Shown piece by piece: positions 5,444 through 25,285 of a stretch of DNA of 32,268 nt; position 1 is the stretch's first letter, and each line of letters begins with the position of its first letter. The position numbers were made by a program, and so were the translations under genes. Below the pieces are notes generated by a model that made no database searches, had not been told where the DNA came from, and saw nothing but the letters and a program-made list of their open reading frames with translations. This DNA comes from Methanothrix harundinacea (lineage in GTDB: Archaea > Halobacteriota > Methanosarcinia > Methanotrichales > Methanotrichaceae): the NCBI GenBank assembly GCA_001509375.1, contig LGFT01000031.1, forward strand, positions 1 through 32,268, read 5' to 3'.

Positions 5444-7483
5444 TTATTCTGCTGGAAGTATATTACAGGCGGCCGACTTGTACTCCGGGATCTTGGATAT
5501 TGGGTCCCTGGCGTCAGAGGTGATCAGGTTCGCACCGTGATAGTGGAAGGGCATAAAGACCATCCCGGGTTTTACCACGTTGGTAACCCTCGCCCTTGCC
5601 CTGGTCTCTCCTCTGAGGGTCGATACCACCACCATGCCGCCGTCGACGATATTCAGGCTGGAAGCATCCTCGGGATTCACCTCGACGTAAAGCTCAGGGT
5701 CCCTCTCCATCAGGGACGGGCTCCTCCGGGTCATGGAGCCTCCATTGTAGTGAACGACTATCCTGCCCGTGGTGAGGAGGATGGGGTACTCAGGGCTCGG
5801 CTCCTCGGCAGGAGGTACATTCTCGACCGCAAAGAGACTTGCCCTGCCGTCCGGCGATGAGAACCTTCCGGTGTGGAGTATCTCCGTTCCCGGATGGTCC
5901 TCTGACGGACAAGGCCAAGCAACGCCCCCGATTCCAGATATCCTCGCCCTCGTGGCGCCTCTGTAGATCGACACCGTACGATTGATCTCCTCTAAAACCT
6001 CGGCGGCAGAGTTGTATTCGATGTCCAGCCCGAGCCTTCTGGCGATATCACAGATTATCAAAAGCCCCTCTCTCGCCTCTCCGGGGGCGGGGACGGCCCG
6101 GTCTATCCACTGAACCCTCCTCTCCATAGAGGTGTAACTGCCATCCTTCTCAGCCCAGGCAGCAGCGGGCAGAACGACGTCGGCAAGCTTGGCCGTCGGC
6201 GTCATAAATATCTCCTGGACCACCAGAAAATCGAGATTTTCCAGGGCCTCGCGGGTCTTAGAGGCATTCGGATCGCAGATCACCGGGTCTTCCCCAATGA
6301 TGTACATCGCCCTGACCTGCCCCTCCAGGGCTGCGTCCATCATCTCCGTGGAGGTCATCCCCGGTCCATCGGGAAGGCTCGGCGCGTTCCAGGCGGTCTT
6401 GAAGAAGTCGACGGACGACGGATCGGAGGCCCTCCTGTACCCGGGGTAGAACTCTGCCATGGCGCCCATATCGCAGGCTCCCTGGACGTTGTTCTGGCCT
6501 CTCATGGGCCAGATGCCGGCCCCCGGTCTTCCGATCTGGCCACAGATCAGGGCCAGGTCGGCGCAGGCCCTGACGTTATCTGTGCCGCAGATGTGCTGGG
6601 TGATTCCCATGGAGTAGAGGAGGGCCGAGGCCTCTGATCGGGAGTAGAGCCGCGCAGCCTCGACGATCTCCTCCGTGGAGACCCCCGTCAGCTCGGATGC
6701 CTTCTCTGGGGTGAACCCTTCCAGGTTCCGCAACAGATCTTCAAAACCCTTCGTCCTATCAGCTATGAACCTCTCGTCTATCGACCCCTCGTCTATCGCC
6801 ACCTTCATCATACCCCTGAGAAGGTCGATGTCGGATCCGGGCTTGAGCCTCAGGTGGAGATCTGCCATCCAAGAGGTGTGTGTGATCCGGGGGTCTGCGA
6901 CTATGATCACAGCTCCATTATCTTTGGCCTTCTGGACCCACCTGGAGACTGTGGGGTGAGCTTCGGCCAGGTTTGTCCCTATGGCCAGGACGCACCTGGC
7001 GTTGGCCAGATCCCCGATATTGTTGGTCATGGCCCCTGTGCCCAGAGATCCCCCAAGCCCCACCACTGTGGGGGAGTGGCAGAGCCGGGCGCAGTTGTCC
7101 ACGTTCGGCGAGCCCAGGAGCCGGGCCATCTTCTGCAGAGCATAGTTCTCCTCGTTATTGCACCTCGAGGATGCGAGAAATCCCAAGGATCGAGCTCCGT
7201 AATCCTTGGCGGCATTTCCCAATCCCTTTGCCACCAGATCTAGGGCCTCCTCCCAGGAGATTCTGATCCAATCGTCTCCATTCCTCTTGAGAGGATATCG
7301 CAGCCTCTCCTTGTGGTTGAGGACCTCCAGGATTGAGTTGCCCTTGGGGCAGAGGCCGCCCTCTCCCGTAGGGTGCTGGGGCATGTACTCCATTCCGATG
7401 GCCCGCCCCTTCTCCACCAAGAGGTAAAAACCGCAACCTACAGCGCAATAAGGGCAGACAGACGCAATCCGTTCTTCGGTTAT
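5444..7483 (-). CDS. fdhA: formate dehydrogenase-like molybdopterin catalytic subunit (copy 1, ATA start proposed)
   Basis: Molybdopterin/[4Fe-4S] oxidoreductase of the FdhA branch, about 680 residues. CPYCAVGC plus Cys45 (GGLCPKGN) forms the N-terminal cluster site C10-x2-C13-x3-C17-x27-C45. The active-site motif CARLCHSPT has Cys (about 135) where E. coli FdhH has selenocysteine, followed by the conserved His. The Arg region is RGQNNVQGACDMG. A molybdopterin-dinucleotide domain ends the protein (PILLTTGR, HYNGGSMTRRSP, VFMPFHYHGANLIT). The first TTG (7420) would remove three cluster cysteines. The frame stays open to a TGA at 7508-7510 with no ATG, GTG or TTG. ATA at 7483 lies five bases after GGTG and gives exactly the same distance to CPYC as ATG does in copy 2. 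It is the last gene of the glt-fdh run. A mutated or miscalled ATG is also possible. Confidence 0.9.
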   Translation of the reverse strand: MTEERIASVCPYCAVGCGFYLLVEKGRAIGMEYMPQHPTGEGGLCPKGNSILEVLNHKERLRYPLKRNGDDWIRISWEEALDLVAKGLGNAAKDYGARSLGFLASSRCNNEENYALQKMARLLGSPNVDNCARLCHSPTVVGLGGSLGTGAMTNNIGDLANARCVLAIGTNLAEAHPTVSRWVQKAKDNGAVIIVADPRITHTSWMADLHLRLKPGSDIDLLRGMMKVAIDEGSIDERFIADRTKGFEDLLRNLEGFTPEKASELTGVSTEEIVEAARLYSRSEASALLYSMGITQHICGTDNVRACADLALICGQIGRPGAGIWPMRGQNNVQGACDMGAMAEFYPGYRRASDPSSVDFFKTAWNAPSLPDGPGMTSTEMMDAALEGQVRAMYIIGEDPVICDPNASKTREALENLDFLVVQEIFMTPTAKLADVVLPAAAWAEKDGSYTSMERRVQWIDRAVPAPGEAREGLLIICDIARRLGLDIEYNSAAEVLEEINRTVSIYRGATRARISGIGGVAWPCPSEDHPGTEILHTGRFSSPDGRASLFAVENVPPAEEPSPEYPILLTTGRIVVHYNGGSMTRRSPSLMERDPELYVEVNPEDASSLNIVDGGMVVVSTLRGETRARARVTNVVKPGMVFMPFHYHGANLITSDARDPISKIPEYKSAACNILPAE

Positions 7484-14566: not shown

Positions 14567-17176
14567 ATGCTCAATCACTTCATCAGCAGGCGAGCCTTTA
14601 AAGTCTGGTTTGCGATCGCGATCGCCCTAGTTTCGATGGCCGGGCTATTCTCGGGGGGTGGTGCGGCCCTGGCGGAAGATGCGTCCCGATATGAGCTTCC
14701 TTTATCGACGGAAGATATCGATAACTTTGAAGATTTCAACTCCAAGTTGCCCCTCAGCGAGGCTTCGCTCGAACGGCTGGAGATGAACGGGTTTGTGGTT
14801 ATGAAGGATCCTTTCTCCCCTAACCGGGAGGATATCACGGCACCCTACAAGCTCCTCAAGAGGCTTGAGGTTCCGATCTTCGTGACCTCCGACACCCTCC
14901 TCCATGTATACCACATCCAGTTCGACGAGACCTTGATGGAGATCGAGGAGGAGCACTTCTATGGCGACCTGTGGACGATCAGCGAAATGATGCTGTCGAA
15001 ATCCGAGGCCGACTACAGGGCCTCTTCGGGCGAGGCGAAGGAGGCGGCGAAGATGAACGTTGCCTTCTTCTCAGTGGCGTTGAGTCTCCTTTCGCCAACG
15101 GCAGATCAGCTCTGTCCCGGGAGTGGGCGGGAGTGCGACGAGAGAAGTTATGAGGGGGGTTACCCCTACTTCAAGCCCGAAGAGCTGGAGGAGAGGAGAT
15201 TTCTGGTCCCCGCCCTGGTGAAGGAGGAGGTAGATGCAGAGCTCGCCCTGATCGAGGGGCAGTCCGGGTTTGCCAAATCGCCGATATTCGGCTACGATGA
15301 GGACTACTCCCAGTACCGGGCCCGGGGCCACTACACCCGATCCGAGCGCCTCAAAAACTACTTCAAGGCTATGATCTGGTACGGGAGGATGGGCTTTCTT
15401 CTGAAGGGCTGCGACGGCGGATGCATCGTCTCCGAAGAGGAGGCGAAAGTCCATACCCTTGCCGCGAGCATGATCGCCAGAAATCTCCTCGGCGACCCCG
15501 AATCGAAGGAGCTTTGGGACAGGATCTATAACGTAACCTCCTTCTACGTCGGATATTCCGACGACCTCGGGCCCCGCGAGTACAGCGACACCATCGACTC
15601 CCTCTTTGATGAGGATGTCTCAGCTCGAGCCCTCTCGGATTCGGACCTCGCCCTCCTCAGGGCAGAGCTCGCTAGGAAGAGATCGCCCAAGATCTACGGC
15701 GGGACAGGGGTCGACTCCCCGGCCTGCGCCGCGGAGCCGCCCTTCTCGCCGGAAGAGGCCGATCTTTGCCTCGCGGCGACGTCGGGGTTGCGGTTCATGG
15801 GGCAGCGGTTCGTTCCCGACTCCTACATATTCCAGAACCTGGTGATCCCGAAGGTCGGCGGCTATTTCGGCGAGGGCGACGCCTTCACCCTCGGTCCGTA
15901 CGGCCGCCACTTCCCGAGGGGCCTGGATCTGATGGCGATCTTGGGCTCGGAGAGGGCTGATGAAATCTTGAAAGCATTGAACGACTCAAGCTACCAGAAC
16001 TACTCGTCCCAGAAGGCAGAACTCCGACTGGAGTTTGACATCTTCAGCGAGGAGGAATGGCAGAAGAACCTCTACTGGTCGTGGCTTTACTCCATGATGC
16101 CCCTTCTCGAGGCGCCCGATCCAAATAGCCCCGCCTTCATGGAGACGACGGCCTGGCAGGATAAGGAGCTGACCACAGCCCTCGCCTCCTGGGCAGAGCT
16201 CCGCCACGATACAATTCTCTACGCAAAGCAGAGCTACACCCTGAAAGCCATCTCCCTTCCGCCGGAGGAGCCCGAACCGGTGGCCGGCTATGTCGAGCCC
16301 GTCCCCGAGGTTTACGGAAGGCTCCTCGATCTCGCCAGGATGAACAGGGAGGGGCTCGAAGAGGCCGGACTTCTCGACGACTCGTCCCGGAGCCGCCTGG
16401 TGAGCTTCGAGACGATCCTTTCGAGGCTTGAGGAGATATCGAGGAAAGAGCTGGACGGAGAGGAGCTGACGGAGGAGGACGTCGAGTTCATCAACGACTT
16501 CGGCGAGAGGCTTAACGGGGCGGTCGAGGGGGTCGACGACGAGTCGAAGAAGACGACGATCGTCGCCGACGTCCACACCGATCCGAACACGGGCTTGGTC
16601 CTGGAGGAAGGGGTGGGCTACGTCAGGCTCGTGGCCGTCGCCTACGACCTTCCCGGCGGCAGGGTCCTTTTAGCGGCAGGGCCCGTCTTCAGCTACTACG
16701 AGTTCAAACAGCCGATGGACGACCGGCTCACCGACGAAGCCTGGCGAGAGATGCTGGCGGACTCGCCCCCGGCGGAGCCCGAGTGGGCGGCCAGCTCCGC
16801 CGAATGGCTCTCCTATTCGATCCTGGAAGCCCCGCCAGATGAGAGGGATGTTGCCGAGGCTGGGGAGGTCGAAGAGAAATTGGTAGAAGAGGAGGAGATC
16901 AAAGCCGTTTCCGGCCAGGGCGCAGAGATCCGACTTGAGGACTTCGAGGTGAGGATCGGCTGGAACCTCTTAAGGGGATGGTACGCTGACTGCACCATCA
17001 CCCTCAGAAACTCCGGGGATGCCGAAGGGACGGCCAACGTCATCCTGGAAGATGGAGACGGAAAACTCCTCAAGGAGCTGGAGATCAAGGTCCCCTCCAA
17101 TTCCGCGGTGACCGAGAAGGCTGAGGTCGACATATCAGGAGGCAGCCGAGAGGTGAACTCAAAATTGGTGGAGTGA
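14567..17176 (+). CDS. secreted DUF3160 protein
   Basis: Large exported protein of 869 residues. A signal peptide with a twin-basic start (SRRAFKVW), a hydrophobic core and an ALA cleavage site spans about 1-37. The body, about 40-760, is a DUF3160 domain recognised from LSEASLERLEMNGFVVM, FVTSDTLLHVYHIQFDETL, LMAILGSERADEIL and the closing VADVHTDPNTGLVLEEGVGYV. Function of the family is unknown. The last 50 residues form a separate beta-sandwich-like module (NWLLRGWYADCTITLRNSGD-type, CARDB-like) after an acidic linker. No C-terminal membrane anchor is visible. It converges on the S-layer gene with a hairpin between. Very acidic overall. Confidence 0.87.
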   Translation: MLNHFISRRAFKVWFAIAIALVSMAGLFSGGGAALAEDASRYELPLSTEDIDNFEDFNSKLPLSEASLERLEMNGFVVMKDPFSPNREDITAPYKLLKRLEVPIFVTSDTLLHVYHIQFDETLMEIEEEHFYGDLWTISEMMLSKSEADYRASSGEAKEAAKMNVAFFSVALSLLSPTADQLCPGSGRECDERSYEGGYPYFKPEELEERRFLVPALVKEEVDAELALIEGQSGFAKSPIFGYDEDYSQYRARGHYTRSERLKNYFKAMIWYGRMGFLLKGCDGGCIVSEEEAKVHTLAASMIARNLLGDPESKELWDRIYNVTSFYVGYSDDLGPREYSDTIDSLFDEDVSARALSDSDLALLRAELARKRSPKIYGGTGVDSPACAAEPPFSPEEADLCLAATSGLRFMGQRFVPDSYIFQNLVIPKVGGYFGEGDAFTLGPYGRHFPRGLDLMAILGSERADEILKALNDSSYQNYSSQKAELRLEFDIFSEEEWQKNLYWSWLYSMMPLLEAPDPNSPAFMETTAWQDKELTTALASWAELRHDTILYAKQSYTLKAISLPPEEPEPVAGYVEPVPEVYGRLLDLARMNREGLEEAGLLDDSSRSRLVSFETILSRLEEISRKELDGEELTEEDVEFINDFGERLNGAVEGVDDESKKTTIVADVHTDPNTGLVLEEGVGYVRLVAVAYDLPGGRVLLAAGPVFSYYEFKQPMDDRLTDEAWREMLADSPPAEPEWAASSAEWLSYSILEAPPDERDVAEAGEVEEKLVEEEEIKAVSGQGAEIRLEDFEVRIGWNLLRGWYADCTITLRNSGDAEGTANVILEDGDGKLLKELEIKVPSNSAVTEKAEVDISGGSREVNSKLVE

Positions 17177-21226: not shown

Positions 21227-21877
21227 ATGAATCCCGATAAGATCGATGAGATCCTCGCCTTCCATCGGTATCAGAAGGATAAGATCGAAGCCCGCCTCGC
21301 CGACTTCAGGCGAATCTGGGCCGAGGGCAAAGACCGCGACCTATTTGCCGAGCTCGCTTTCTGCATCCTCACCCCTCAATCCCGGGCGAGAACCTGCTGG
21401 CCCGCCATCGAGAGGCTCAGAAGATGCGGCCTCCTCTTCGAGGGCACCGCCGAGGAGATCCGGGGTGAGCTTAAAAACGTCCGCTTCAGGGAGAGGAAGG
21501 CGAGCTACATCGTCTCGGCCCGAAATCAGTTCACGAAGGAAGGTCAGCTCTCGGTCAGATCCATCCTTGGAGGGTTCTCCAACCCCTTCGCGGCCCGGGA
21601 GTGGCTCGTCGAGAACGTCCTGGGCCTCGGGTACAAGGAGGCGGGCCACTTTCTCCGAAACATCGGGCTCGGTGAGGATCTCGCCATCCTCGACCGCCAC
21701 ATCCTCAAAAACCTGGCGATCCTGGGCGTCATCGACGAGGCCCCGGCCTCCCTCACCAAAAAGAGGTACCTGGATATCGAAAAGAAGATGATCGCCTTCT
21801 CGAAGGAGGTGGGGATCCCCATGAGCCACCTGGACCTTCTCCTCTGGTCCAAGGAGACGGGCGAGATCTTCAAATGA
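21227..21877 (+). CDS. ogg: N-glycosylase/DNA lyase, archaeal Ogg2 type
   Basis: HhH-GPD DNA-repair glycosylase of 216 residues that removes 8-oxoguanine and cuts the abasic site. The helix-hairpin-helix VLGLGYKEAGHFLRNIG carries catalytic Lys137, and LAILDRHIL carries catalytic Asp156. The N-terminal helical part (ELAFCILTPQSRAR) and the C-terminal SHLDLLLWSKETGEIFK match the short Ogg2 class of methanogens (about 205-215 residues). The frame is open 44 codons further upstream, but that extension is low-complexity and lacks homology features, so ATG 21227 is chosen. Its 3' end overlaps the convergent DUF4130-like gene by 8 bp. Confidence 0.92.
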   Translation: MNPDKIDEILAFHRYQKDKIEARLADFRRIWAEGKDRDLFAELAFCILTPQSRARTCWPAIERLRRCGLLFEGTAEEIRGELKNVRFRERKASYIVSARNQFTKEGQLSVRSILGGFSNPFAAREWLVENVLGLGYKEAGHFLRNIGLGEDLAILDRHILKNLAILGVIDEAPASLTKKRYLDIEKKMIAFSKEVGIPMSHLDLLLWSKETGEIFK

Positions 21878-22505
21878 AGTCTCCGAGCCTCTTGTTCCCT
21901 CGCCCCCTCTCCGTCTCCATCCCCGCTGACCTCTCGGCACACCTGGAGATCCGCCCTCCAAAGGGCCTTCTGCCGTCTTTTCGGGGCTCGTCCTGGCTTC
22001 GATAGTAGACCTCCCAGAGGTCGGTGACGCCGCCATCGGCATCGTCTTCGTCCATTTCGTCCTCTTTCTCGCCCTTGCCCTCGCCGGCTCCGACGTCCAT
22101 GAAGCGGCCGAGCTCTTCGAGGGCGGACGCGACCCCATCGCCCCGGGAGCGGAGAAAGCCGGACTCGGTCCTGAAGGAGGACCAGGACCTCCATTCGTCT
22201 CCCAGGAGGATGATCGTCCCCGGAAACCTCTTCGCCAAGAAGTCGGCGACCTCAAACCCGATCTCGTGGTCGGGGCTCATCCGGCCCCAGAGGACCTTTT
22301 TTCCTCGGGGCTTAAGCCTCACAAACCCCCTCATCCGATGGATCTCACCCTGGACCGCGTATATCATCCCCCTGATGCGGAGAACCTCCGGGTCCGTCGA
22401 GGTCTCCACCTCCAGGGGTGTGAGGCTTCTAGCTCTCTCGATCATCTGGTCGTCGCTATCTCTGTGGGCTGAGAGAAGCTCGACGAAGTCTTCGGGGGTT
22501 CTCAT
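21870..22505 (-). CDS. DUF4130-like protein paired with the DNA-repair radical SAM gene
   Basis: Protein of 211 residues. The central region GEIHRMRGFVRLKPRGKK (about 56-73), then MSPDHEIGFEVADFLAKRFPG, matches the pattern of DUF4130/TIGR03915. In bacteria that family is encoded next to a radical SAM protein and is sometimes fused to a uracil-DNA-glycosylase-like domain. The C-terminal third is an acidic low-complexity linker (GKGEKEDEMDEDDADGG) followed by an Arg-rich tail and is not conserved-looking. ATG 22505 overlaps the radical SAM stop (ATGA), indicating coupling. An upstream ATG at 22535 is less likely. Biochemical role is unknown; a DNA-repair role is inferred from partners. Confidence 0.75.
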   Translation of the reverse strand: MRTPEDFVELLSAHRDSDDQMIERARSLTPLEVETSTDPEVLRIRGMIYAVQGEIHRMRGFVRLKPRGKKVLWGRMSPDHEIGFEVADFLAKRFPGTIILLGDEWRSWSSFRTESGFLRSRGDGVASALEELGRFMDVGAGEGKGEKEDEMDEDDADGGVTDLWEVYYRSQDEPRKDGRRPFGGRISRCAERSAGMETERGRGNKRLGDFI

Positions 22506-23668
22506 CTGATCCACCGATCCAGGGTAGTGCTGCATTTGCCGTCGATCTTGAGGAAGGGACCCGCCCGGCGTACCACGACCCCCAAAGCCGCAAGGTCCCT
22601 CATCCTCTCGATCCTCTTTTCTTTTCGGAGGAGGGAGATCCTTCGGGCGCTCTTCGGTCCGATCCCCGGCACCCTGATCAATTCACTGAAGGAGGCCGAG
22701 TTCGGGTCGATCGGCGAGTCGAAGAAGTTCACGGCTATCGCCATCTTAGGATCGCCATTTCGGAGGAAGCCGTCGTCGTCGAAGGCCACGAGGATCTCCT
22801 CTCTCTTTAGCCCGTAGACTCGATGGAGCCAGTCGACCTGATAGAGACGGTGCTCCCTCCAGCTCTGCTCCTTCTCCTTTCCCTCGAAGGTTGTCCCCGC
22901 CACGGGCCGAAAGGCCGAGAAGTATACCCTCCTCAGGTTCATCGTCTCATACTCGAAGAAGAGCCGATCGAAGATCTCCCGGTCGCTCTCCTCGGCAGCC
23001 CCAACCACCATCTGGGTGGTCTGGCCCGCGGGAAGGTCCACCCTCCCCGATAGTTCTTTCACGTACCTCTGCCTCGCCAGGATGTCCCTCTCGTAATCCT
23101 TCGACGGGCACAGATCCGCCAACCTGGACTTCGACGGCGCCTCCAGGTTCACACTAACCCTGTCCGCCAGCTCCATCGCCTCCCTCACGTGCTCCTTCGA
23201 CGAGCCGGGGAGGATCTTCAGGTGGACGTAGCCCCGGAACCGGTGGATGCCTCTCAGAAGCCTCACCGTCTCGATCATCTCCTCCATCGTCTCGTTCTCA
23301 TCTCTGCCGATCCCCGAGCTCAAAAATAGCCCCTCGATCCGATTTGATCGATAGAGTCCGACGGTGATCCTCGCCAGCTCCTCGGGCGAGTAGGAGAAAG
23401 TCCTCGCGCTGCCTCTGCTATTCCGGGAGTTGGTGCAGTACCTGCAGTCCAAGGGGCAGGCGTTGGTGTAGAGGGTTTTGAAGAGGCTGACGCACCTTCC
23501 GTTGCCGGTGAAAGAGTGGCAGAGGCCTCCTCTCAGGACGTCGCCGATCCCATGGGACCCCTCGACCTTCCTCTTCGTCGAGGTGGAAGAGCAGAGGTCG
23601 TACTTGGTTCCCCTCCCCAGGGCATCGACCTTGGCTGGATCGATCTTCAGGCCCGGGAGGGGTCCCAA
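22502..23668 (-). CDS. putative DNA modification/repair radical SAM protein with HhH domain
   Basis: About 388 residues. The radical SAM motif C71-PLD-C75-RY-C78 is preceded by the family motif KYDLCSS and CHSFTGNGRCVSLFKTLYTNA. The C-terminus carries a helix-hairpin-helix (SELIRVPGIGPKSARRISLL), indicating DNA contact. This matches the radical SAM family linked to uracil-DNA-glycosylase-type proteins (TIGR03916). The frame extends to ATG 23749, but those codons lie inside the end of the transposase gene. TTG 23668 is the first start outside it, gives a family-like N-terminus (about 20 residues before KYDLC) and has AGG nine bases upstream. The native start may have been lost to the insertion. 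Confidence 0.87.
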   Translation of the reverse strand: MGPLPGLKIDPAKVDALGRGTKYDLCSSTSTKRKVEGSHGIGDVLRGGLCHSFTGNGRCVSLFKTLYTNACPLDCRYCTNSRNSRGSARTFSYSPEELARITVGLYRSNRIEGLFLSSGIGRDENETMEEMIETVRLLRGIHRFRGYVHLKILPGSSKEHVREAMELADRVSVNLEAPSKSRLADLCPSKDYERDILARQRYVKELSGRVDLPAGQTTQMVVGAAEESDREIFDRLFFEYETMNLRRVYFSAFRPVAGTTFEGKEKEQSWREHRLYQVDWLHRVYGLKREEILVAFDDDGFLRNGDPKMAIAVNFFDSPIDPNSASFSELIRVPGIGPKSARRISLLRKEKRIERMRDLAALGVVVRRAGPFLKIDGKCSTTLDRWIR

Positions 23669-23682
23669 AGAGTCGAACCTGC

Positions 23683-25212
23683 TCAGATTATCTTTCCTCG
23701 ATCTGTGACAACCGATTGAATCACTCCCATGAACGTCTCGAATATCCATCGCATAGTCGGTCGCTGTGTAGGTTTATTTAGCTGGTTAGGCACAGTCTCT
23801 CCCGTTTCTTTGAGCTTCTCTCTAAGCTTCCATTCTGCAAAAGAGTAAATGAGAAGACTCAGAACCATGATCATGCTAAGGGATTCGATCCGTTCTTCCT
23901 TCTTGAGGTAGACTTCTGAGACGTGAAAGCTCTTGTCCTTCAGGAAGCGAAATCCGCGTTCCACCGTCTGCTGACCTTTATAATAATTGAGCATGATCTC
24001 TGGTTCCAGATCGGTTTTGTTGCTGGCCAGGACAAATCTGCCAAGATTCTTGCGTTCTTCAGTCAGAACGTCTTCATCGATCTCGATTTCAGCTTCGATT
24101 TTGAAGTTCAGGCTTAAAGGTTCGTCCTTCTTGGGACGTCCTCTCCTCTTCTCAACTTTTTCTACGCAAGATGCTATCTGGAGATTCTTGATCCGGTGAT
24201 GTGGATGCATAGAATCCCATATCTTTGCTTCATTTTCGGCATCTGGCACGCAGACGAACTTCCTGCTTTTTAGCTTTTTAAGGTCTTTCTCGGCACGATC
24301 GGTTTCCTTTTGAATCTTCTTATCAAGGGTCTTCTCGTTCCTCTTTTTCATCTCTTCGGACCAGACGACTACAGCACGTTGAGGAACATCTGCATAGTTA
24401 AAATCTGTAACATGAAATGCGTACCGAGGGTCGCTTCCTGGAGTCATATCCAGATCGGCATTGAGGAGTCTCTTGGCTTCACCTACCGTAGCTGGAACGT
24501 GAGTGATCCATTTGGTTTCAGTTCCAAGGAGCCTGATGTTCTCTTCCGTGTACAGAGCGCTATCCGCGATCCAGTAACAATCCTCATCGAATTTGATCGC
24601 TTGTTGCGTCTTTTGGATCATCTCCATGATGCTTTTCTTGTCCGACGCGTTTCCAGAGTAGGCTTTAGTAAAAAGAGGCAATCCATGCTGATTCGTAACC
24701 AAACCGAGGACGAAACGCCTCAGATCTGTTCTGCCGTCTTTGGCATGACCAAACGTAATTTTGATCGAATCTGTACCGTCTGGTGCATCGCCTTCATATT
24801 TTCCATATAAGCTGAAGTTCGTAGTATCAACATGTATCAGCTGAGTCCCCAAAGAAAATTGTTTCATAATCTCTAGTGATATCTCATTGAACAGCTCTGT
24901 TGGACCATAATCATGAATAGCATCAAGCGTCCTGCCTACTATATCATCATTCAGGTCGGAAGGAGTAATCCCTTCACCAAGCAGCTTCTCAGTAGGAATC
25001 GTCATAAAAAAGTTGGGAAATAGGTATAACCTCTGACCTGTGAAACCCAAACCGTTGAGGATCATGGCTTTGATCACAACCGATCGGGGAAGATTTCGGG
25101 AACTCTTCTTGGGAAGTGCCCGATCAATAACTTCAGCGATCTTCAATGAATCGAAAATGCCTGCAGCTAGACCAAGGTGGCCTATTAGGTGCGATTGGAC
25201 GTCCACATCCAT
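23683..25212 (-). CDS. IS1634 family DDE transposase
   Basis: Full-length transposase of 509 residues. The N-terminal helical part includes LIGHLGLAAGIFDSLKIAEVID. The DDE core has the first Asp in LIHVDTTNFSLYGKYEG, the second in YWIADSALYTEEN and the Glu in QQTVERGFRFLKD, with the family motif LPLFTKAYSGNASD. A basic linker (KRRGRPKKDE) sits between the second and third catalytic residues. The C-terminus is hydrophobic (SLSMIMVLSLLIYSFAEWKLREKL). A GTG at 25221 is in frame, but GGTGAG lies four bases before ATG 25212, so that start is chosen. No frameshift, so it may be active. AT-richer codons than the flanking genes. Confidence 0.93.
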   Translation of the reverse strand: MDVDVQSHLIGHLGLAAGIFDSLKIAEVIDRALPKKSSRNLPRSVVIKAMILNGLGFTGQRLYLFPNFFMTIPTEKLLGEGITPSDLNDDIVGRTLDAIHDYGPTELFNEISLEIMKQFSLGTQLIHVDTTNFSLYGKYEGDAPDGTDSIKITFGHAKDGRTDLRRFVLGLVTNQHGLPLFTKAYSGNASDKKSIMEMIQKTQQAIKFDEDCYWIADSALYTEENIRLLGTETKWITHVPATVGEAKRLLNADLDMTPGSDPRYAFHVTDFNYADVPQRAVVVWSEEMKKRNEKTLDKKIQKETDRAEKDLKKLKSRKFVCVPDAENEAKIWDSMHPHHRIKNLQIASCVEKVEKRRGRPKKDEPLSLNFKIEAEIEIDEDVLTEERKNLGRFVLASNKTDLEPEIMLNYYKGQQTVERGFRFLKDKSFHVSEVYLKKEERIESLSMIMVLSLLIYSFAEWKLREKLKETGETVPNQLNKPTQRPTMRWIFETFMGVIQSVVTDRGKII

Positions 25213-25285
25213 GCTACTCACCTTCGAGGTGCCTTGGATGCTATTATTAAAAAATGTTGTGGATATTTACAAAGAGAAATTCTGA
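23683..25285 (-). mobile_element. IS1634-type insertion sequence (ends tentative)
   Basis: A single full-length transposase gene with candidate imperfect terminal inverted repeats: TCAGATTATCTTTC reading inward from 23683, and TCAGAATTTCTCTT reading inward from 25285 on the other strand. A matching ACAAC occurs at the same internal offset on both sides. The left repeat would contain the transposase stop codon. No clear target duplication was seen, so the ends are provisional. Lower GC than its neighbours supports transfer. Confidence 0.5.

Follow-up and report, generated by a model that had tools for sequence, protein, structure and literature searches.

What does a radical S-adenosylmethionine (SAM) protein with a helix-hairpin-helix (HhH) domain do together with its DUF4130 partner, and does the Ogg2-type glycosylase next to them belong to the same system? 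The question is raised by contig LGFT01000031.1 of Methanothrix harundinacea, a stretch of 32,268 nucleotides (the window, in its full length) that forms contig 66 in a draft genome of 2.38 Mb (GCA_001509375.1). The pair is common, seems to be under SOS control in bacteria, and has been assigned no reaction. We give a probability of about one half to the pair being a dedicated two-protein radical DNA-damage enzyme with DUF4130 as its obligate partner; its cofactor, its substrate and a direct chemistry on the base are what we infer from sequence. The other proteins found around it, a UdgX-type glycosylase in some bacteria, an HhH-MutS protein in one archaeal family and Ogg2 in the window's genus, are most likely lineage-specific company.

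The pair lies on the reverse strand. The radical SAM/HhH protein (22502..23687) contains a CPLDCRYC motif, matches PF04055 and ends in an HHH_3 domain. Against TIGR03916 it scores 341.0 bits (E 1.1e-101), just under a cut-off of 343.5 that only 3 of 237 genomes of the class pass. Its stop codon overlaps the start of the DUF4130 gene (21870..22505, 211 aa) in an ATGA at 22502..22505. Relatives present a like geometry: the offset between stop and start was -3 in 59 of 108 pairs, taking the nearest start codon and with some loci representing the same gene twice. The first-pass annotation, made from the DNA letters alone, had called the partner DUF4130-like and left open that a profile search might fail. 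That doubt is removed, since PF13566 matches with 51.3 bits (1.7e-13) over a gathering cut-off of 27. DUF4130 is the only domain above cut-off in this protein, and no uracil-DNA glycosylase (UDG) domain was found in it. The match to TIGR03915 covers profile positions 102-216 of 243 and stays, at 45.9 bits, far under the cut-off of 112.25. In the alignment, this short archaeal form lacks the N-terminal ~80 aa of the bacterial TIGR03915 proteins, and it has an acidic, poorly predicted insert. The pair belongs to the known, uncharacterised TIGR03916/TIGR03915 family. It shares with that family the gene order, the overlap, the radical SAM motif, the HhH and the DUF4130 domain, and differs from it in the shorter, low-scoring partner and in the convergent Ogg2 neighbour.

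Evidence for a joint function comes from a site in the radical SAM protein that tracks the partner. Ahead of the SAM-cluster motif, the pattern C-H-x-[FYW]-x-x-[DNS]-G-R-C was present in 126/126 loci with an adjacent DUF4130 (a few genes being represented by two loci), and it was absent in 21 of the 26 loci without a nearby DUF4130. The other five were two loci at a contig end, one with a flank of 1.5 kb, and two Oscillospiraceae loci with no visible partner. At the level of alignment columns, C16, C40, H41, C49 and E262 were each present in 121/121 DUF4130-linked proteins. Among 20 DUF4130-less proteins, C16 was kept in 12, C40 in 3, C49 in 8 and E262 in 5, and the three SAM-cluster cysteines, invariant throughout (C61, C65 and C68), in all 20. 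This count left out the short-flank rows L002, L030, L037, L056, L078 and L091, and dropped the duplicates L007, L040, L046, L052 and L053. Residue loss accompanies partner loss, which argues that C16, C40, H41, C49 and E262 would serve a function joint with DUF4130.

We placed these changes on a tree of 71 rows, computed with the motif columns left out. Motif and DUF4130 coincided in all 71 (50 with both, 21 with neither). Each changed five times, and all five independent pairs changed together and in the same direction (sign test 0.0625). Two switches lie inside the window's family, in genera g9 and g11, and none of the genomes of these genera in the tree gave a DUF4130 match; two others depend on archaeal rows that were picked by pattern or chosen with the pair (L060-L062). 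Four loci from two genera of the window's family (L030, L031, L056, and L057) kept the radical SAM protein and lost both DUF4130 and the C-H...C motif. L030 and L056 were used in the tree because they come from whole genomes without a DUF4130 match. Eleven bacterial or other named rows were added, 10 of them picked by pattern or chosen with the pair, and all 11 carry both features. The tree dropped the same duplicates and also L015 and L020.

The linkage of the two genes extends well beyond the class. A genome-wide scan returned at least 592 candidates, and we studied the best 80 as named loci, of which 4 are archaeal and 76 bacterial; the CH..DGRC pattern had itself served in part to select them. 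DUF4130 follows the radical SAM gene on the same strand in 77 of them, in bacteria and archaea alike. It was not found in L078 (which ends 114 bases past the gene), L087 and L091. The annotation had also tied the bacterial pair to a UDG-like domain. This is true of some bacteria, where the domain is fused to DUF4130 in the same open reading frame (ORF), and fails as a general rule: the fusion occurs in 16 of the 80 loci only, and most of the bacteria have a stand-alone DUF4130. According to the record titles, the fusions belong to 13 Alphaproteobacteria, one Pseudomonadota metagenome-assembled genome (MAG) and two myxobacteria. The UDG domain fused to DUF4130 is of the UdgX type at L035 (5206-6645 of that locus) and at 16 loci within L075-L134.

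UdgX is a glycosylase that cross-links itself to DNA, and GEQPG and a KRRIH-type loop are its marks, tied to the cross-linking according to PMC10359453. GEQPG and a K..R[IL]H loop were found in 16/16 fused proteins and in a copy on a Paracoccus plasmid. A literature search, with subscription papers mostly outside its reach, found no paper joining UdgX with a radical SAM protein. In these alphaproteobacterial fusions (L035, for example), DUF4130 directly follows the radical SAM gene as it does in the window, from which the cross-linking type of glycosylase is absent. Because every fusion keeps the residues linked to cross-linking, one could propose that the ancestral role of the system is to resolve or exploit the covalent UdgX-DNA adduct. 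We regard this as very improbable: 61 of the 77 DUF4130 loci have no UDG, and the only UDG match in the window genome has GEAPG and sits on another contig.

Two loci are curious for their labels. L036 (CAKLQH020000003.1) is a 240-kb record labelled as an Acinetobacter phage, where the pair lies beside glyQ/glyS and aidB, and which looks like a bacterial chromosome. L059 (DUKX01000101.1), filed under Methanofastidiosum and possibly mis-binned, has a radical SAM protein that shares 56% identity with that of the window, by far the nearest among the best 80.

In bacteria, the sequence upstream of the pair points to control by DNA damage. We scanned the 350 bp ahead of the radical SAM gene in 79 loci (L060 was too short) for LexA boxes by their consensus sequences, and compared the counts with plain composition shuffles. 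GAACN4GTTC was present in 14/79 loci (0.28 expected from shuffles; 5 of 2281 control windows). GAACN7GAAC or GTTCN7GTTC was present in 16/79 (0.71 expected; 32 of 2281 control windows), a set that includes 14/14 alphaproteobacterial loci and the Pseudomonadota MAG, at -42 to -67. A box at -300 in L138 is probably there by chance.

The SOS link of the pair is not new, since LexA reports on it are published; what we add is its apparent extent among sequenced loci. We take COG4277 to be the radical SAM/HhH protein of the pair. LexA was proposed to control CAC3343-CAC3344 (PMC3828012). A COG1573-COG4277 operon, apparently with the same radical SAM/HhH protein and its partner, is part of the LexA networks of Bacteroidetes and had been reported earlier for Verrucomicrobia and Alphaproteobacteria (PMC8565304). 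In 2013, DUF4130 was predicted to be a mutagenesis-related enzyme with ties to SplB-like radical SAM enzymes and uracil glycosylases (PMC3765255), and an Acinetobacter copy is reported to rise upon desiccation (PMC13130816).

A different companion was found in archaea. Each of the three families, radical SAM, DUF4130 and Ogg2, was searched for in the 237 genomes of the class, and positions were compared by hand. Matches to DUF4130 came from 98 genomes, of which 33 belong to the window's family (f1), 1 to family f4 and 64 to family f7, presumably Methanosarcinaceae-like. In 62 of these 64, the next gene encodes a protein of ~700 aa with an N-terminal HhH and a MutS domain V ATPase (HhH/MutS_V). 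Of the remaining two, G123 has this gene at a contig end, and its place in G184 is not listed. One example of the ATPase as third gene of the radical SAM-DUF4130 operon is L022:5235-7349. The protein occurs in 202 of the 237 genomes, also in those without the pair, so we consider it an operon partner in f7 only. As for an ortholog in the window genome, the best candidate had 26% identity at 4e-6 in a search with one sequence, and none appeared at 1e-30 with an alignment. All 8 other genus members have a match, and its absence from the window genome may be a gap in the draft.

Structure models give some indication of what the two proteins may do. The radical SAM model (predicted local distance difference test, pLDDT, 88) best resembles lipoyl synthase 2 and HydE, with Z 18.5, and RlmN comes lower down. 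The DUF4130 model has a pLDDT of 79, and the blocks within its first 130 residues reach at least 75. Its list of matches is headed mainly by RecJ, GdpP, NrnA, Cdc45 and AlaRS, through stretches that we take to be their DHHA1 domains. RecJ2 reached Z 7.8 over 123 residues with a root-mean-square deviation of 3.0, a Z under 8 being middling by the comparison tool's own note. In overall arrangement the model resembles DHHA1 domains such as those of RecJ, GdpP and the C-Ala part of AlaRS; no sequence relation was found, and the window DUF4130 has no DHH catalytic domain. The structures most like the radical SAM core are those of metabolic or cofactor enzymes, RlmN ranking lower, and DHHA1 domains are also part of alanyl-tRNA synthetase. 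This would suit a pair acting on RNA, for example in tRNA modification, with the DNA-repair label as an annotation echo. The LexA-like boxes and published LexA networks, the fusion of DUF4130 to a DNA glycosylase and the operon with the HhH/MutS_V protein leave that idea little chance.

The roles might also be reversed: DUF4130 would itself act on nucleic acid or bind it, and the radical SAM protein would be a protein-modifying enzyme that matures DUF4130. The one-to-one pairing, the motif co-variation and the fusion of UdgX to DUF4130 instead of the radical SAM protein would all agree with this. We still find it unlikely, as the HhH domain sits on the radical SAM protein itself. Besides, DUF4130 has few near-invariant residues (R63 and R93 are invariant in the alignment) and no obvious residue to modify. 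Nor did it show a sequence relative among solved structures, where phmmer found none and the best profile result, 0.11, was taken as chance.

In the two-protein DNA-damage enzyme that we prefer, the radical SAM subunit would bind a [4Fe-4S] cluster and SAM at C61-C65-C68, as its motif suggests, and would hold DNA through the C-terminal HhH. It would then make a 5'-deoxyadenosyl radical, by which a damaged base in DNA might be repaired or converted. DUF4130 would recognise or present the damaged nucleotide, going by the likeness of its model to DHHA1, the substrate-binding domain in RecJ-type proteins, and we propose that the N-terminal C16/C40/H41/C49 could form a second metal centre or a docking site for DUF4130. 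In bacteria the pair would be induced by the SOS response; the UdgX-type glycosylase fused to DUF4130 in Alphaproteobacteria and myxobacteria would be an add-on, and Ogg2 would have become a convergent neighbour in one genus. A bolder version is possible, though doubtful: an ancient, glycosylase-independent repair holoenzyme of bacteria and archaea, whose second metal site (C16, C40, H41, and C49) would work only with a DHHA1-like DUF4130 that flips or threads the damaged nucleotide. If true, damaged bases would be repaired directly in a new way, unlike that of photolyases, spore photoproduct lyase (SplB), AlkB or glycosylases. SplB is also a radical SAM enzyme tied to DNA damage, and DUF4130 is said to associate with SplB-like enzymes (PMC3765255). 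The window protein would differ from SplB in its match to TIGR03916, its C-terminal HhH and its partner. Residues C16, C40, H41, C49 and E262, the UdgX type of fusion and the HhH/MutS_V third gene offer handles for finding the lesion and testing direct repair.

Several points weigh against the DNA-damage enzyme. The literature search found no biochemistry of the pair, and the window copy of the radical SAM gene is truncated at its 5' end. With five independent pairs, 0.0625 is the lowest value that the sign test can give. The pattern itself helped to select the 80 named loci, so it is the archaeal rows found by profile that carry the motif result. Residues 17-32 of the radical SAM model have low confidence. 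DHHA1 homology of DUF4130 was not found by sequence, with hhalign giving a probability of 0.2% in a profile comparison with archaeal DHHA1 domains, and Foldseek with the DUF4130 model gave no match at E <= 0.001. Because of these two results, the likeness to DHHA1 may reflect no more than a widespread arrangement, and we keep it as a lead from the model. Finally, archaea are not known to have LexA, so damage induction of the window pair is not supported by the boxes. This and the missing UDG domain of its partner distinguish it from the COG1573-COG4277 operon.

What, then, of Ogg2? The gene (21227..21877, forward strand; longest ORF from 21095) encodes a predicted 8-oxoguanine DNA glycosylase/apurinic-apyrimidinic lyase, which passes the curated NF002305 model with 220.8 bits (cut-off 183) and matches PF22175 at 5.9e-60. 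The protein contains GLGYKEA...ILDR, which we take to hold the catalytic Lys and Asp of Ogg2, and ends in ...KETGEIFK. Its end overlaps that of the DUF4130 gene by 8 bp (21870..21877). The three genes are thus placed as the first-pass annotation had them, and both the ATGA and the convergent overlap are borne out by the DNA. The 8-bp overlap is present in 7/7 genus members that have the trio.

Beyond the genus the association disappears. Ogg2 was found in 28 of the 98 DUF4130 genomes (8 of the window's genus and 20 outside it) and was not detectable in the other 70, which include all 64 genomes of f7. Of the 8 genus members, 7 have it convergent with and adjoining DUF4130; of the 20 other genomes of the class with both genes, none does. 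For 10 of those 20 we fetched longer stretches, with no Ogg2 in the flank, and for the other 10 the comparison is by contig positions in drafts. In G202, a two-contig genome outside the genus, Ogg2 and DUF4130 are ~2.3 Mb apart. None of the 80 named loci has Ogg2 within the fetched flank. A phmmer search over all loci with the window genome's two other HhH-GPD proteins, a single-sequence search of limited reach, gave one match, 3.5 kb from a DUF4130-less copy. The suggestion that the pair acts with base-excision enzymes more generally is therefore unsupported beyond one genus, within the class as sampled, and we dropped it. The annotation had itself named a missing glycosylase link in other archaea as grounds for rejection, and this is what the sampled class shows outside the genus. 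The tempting general link of the pair to oxidised-guanine repair is corrected accordingly; from its sequence, the window Ogg2 is an ordinary, separate base-excision enzyme by predicted activity, and not a general part of the radical SAM/DUF4130 system.

Within the genus, the trio is an arrangement that outlives changes around it, and no rule for archaea. The flanks beyond it differ among the window, L038, L044/L045 and L039-L041 (L039, L040, and L041 share theirs), and no real neighbour in the window between 14.5 and 32 kb was found again in the other genus loci. The trio stays constant while its flanks differ, so local selection on it is possible. It might even be a functional base-excision module of the genus, where the pair processes a lesion and Ogg2 excises the product or a related oxidised purine, as the overlap kept in 7 of 8 members despite differing flanks would suggest. 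We consider this quite improbable. Ogg2 and the pair are on opposite strands, hence without a shared promoter, and convergent ends that overlap are hard to part by rearrangement. One genus member, G199 (L042 and L043), keeps the pair with Ogg2 on another contig, and the 20 genomes with separate genes and the 70 without an Ogg2 match speak against the module as well.

Other details of the genus loci are of minor weight. In G199, ~5 kb of unrelated genes follow DUF4130 in the usual place of Ogg2, among them a MerR/GyrI-like regulator. L041 has a short ORF partly similar to Ogg2 (6014-6460) upstream of the intact gene, which may be a second copy in decay. Two members encode a small Cdd1 (PF11731) protein immediately upstream of Ogg2 (L044:7664-8011 and L045:8630-8959).

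The start of the radical SAM gene in the window has been altered by an insertion sequence (IS). An IS1634-family transposase (23683..25221, reverse strand; NF033559, 379.2 bits) adjoins it, and in place of the first ~12 codons stands the end of the element. Homology to L038, the closest relative with 82% identity, begins only at ~23687, where the IS1634-type sequence ends. The true start is therefore uncertain. The native first dozen codons were found neither in the window nor across the IS on its other side, and no terminal inverted repeats of 10 exact bases were found in the element, which has no second copy in the window genome. The radical SAM frame remains open into the IS sequence, where an ATG at 23749 could be the start; an internal start is the other possibility. 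Thus, the gene may still be expressed as a chimera, or it may be in the course of being lost. Left of the group, the window encodes a two-domain S-layer protein (PF07752; 17239-19158, reverse strand) and a DUF3160 protein (14567-17176, forward strand).

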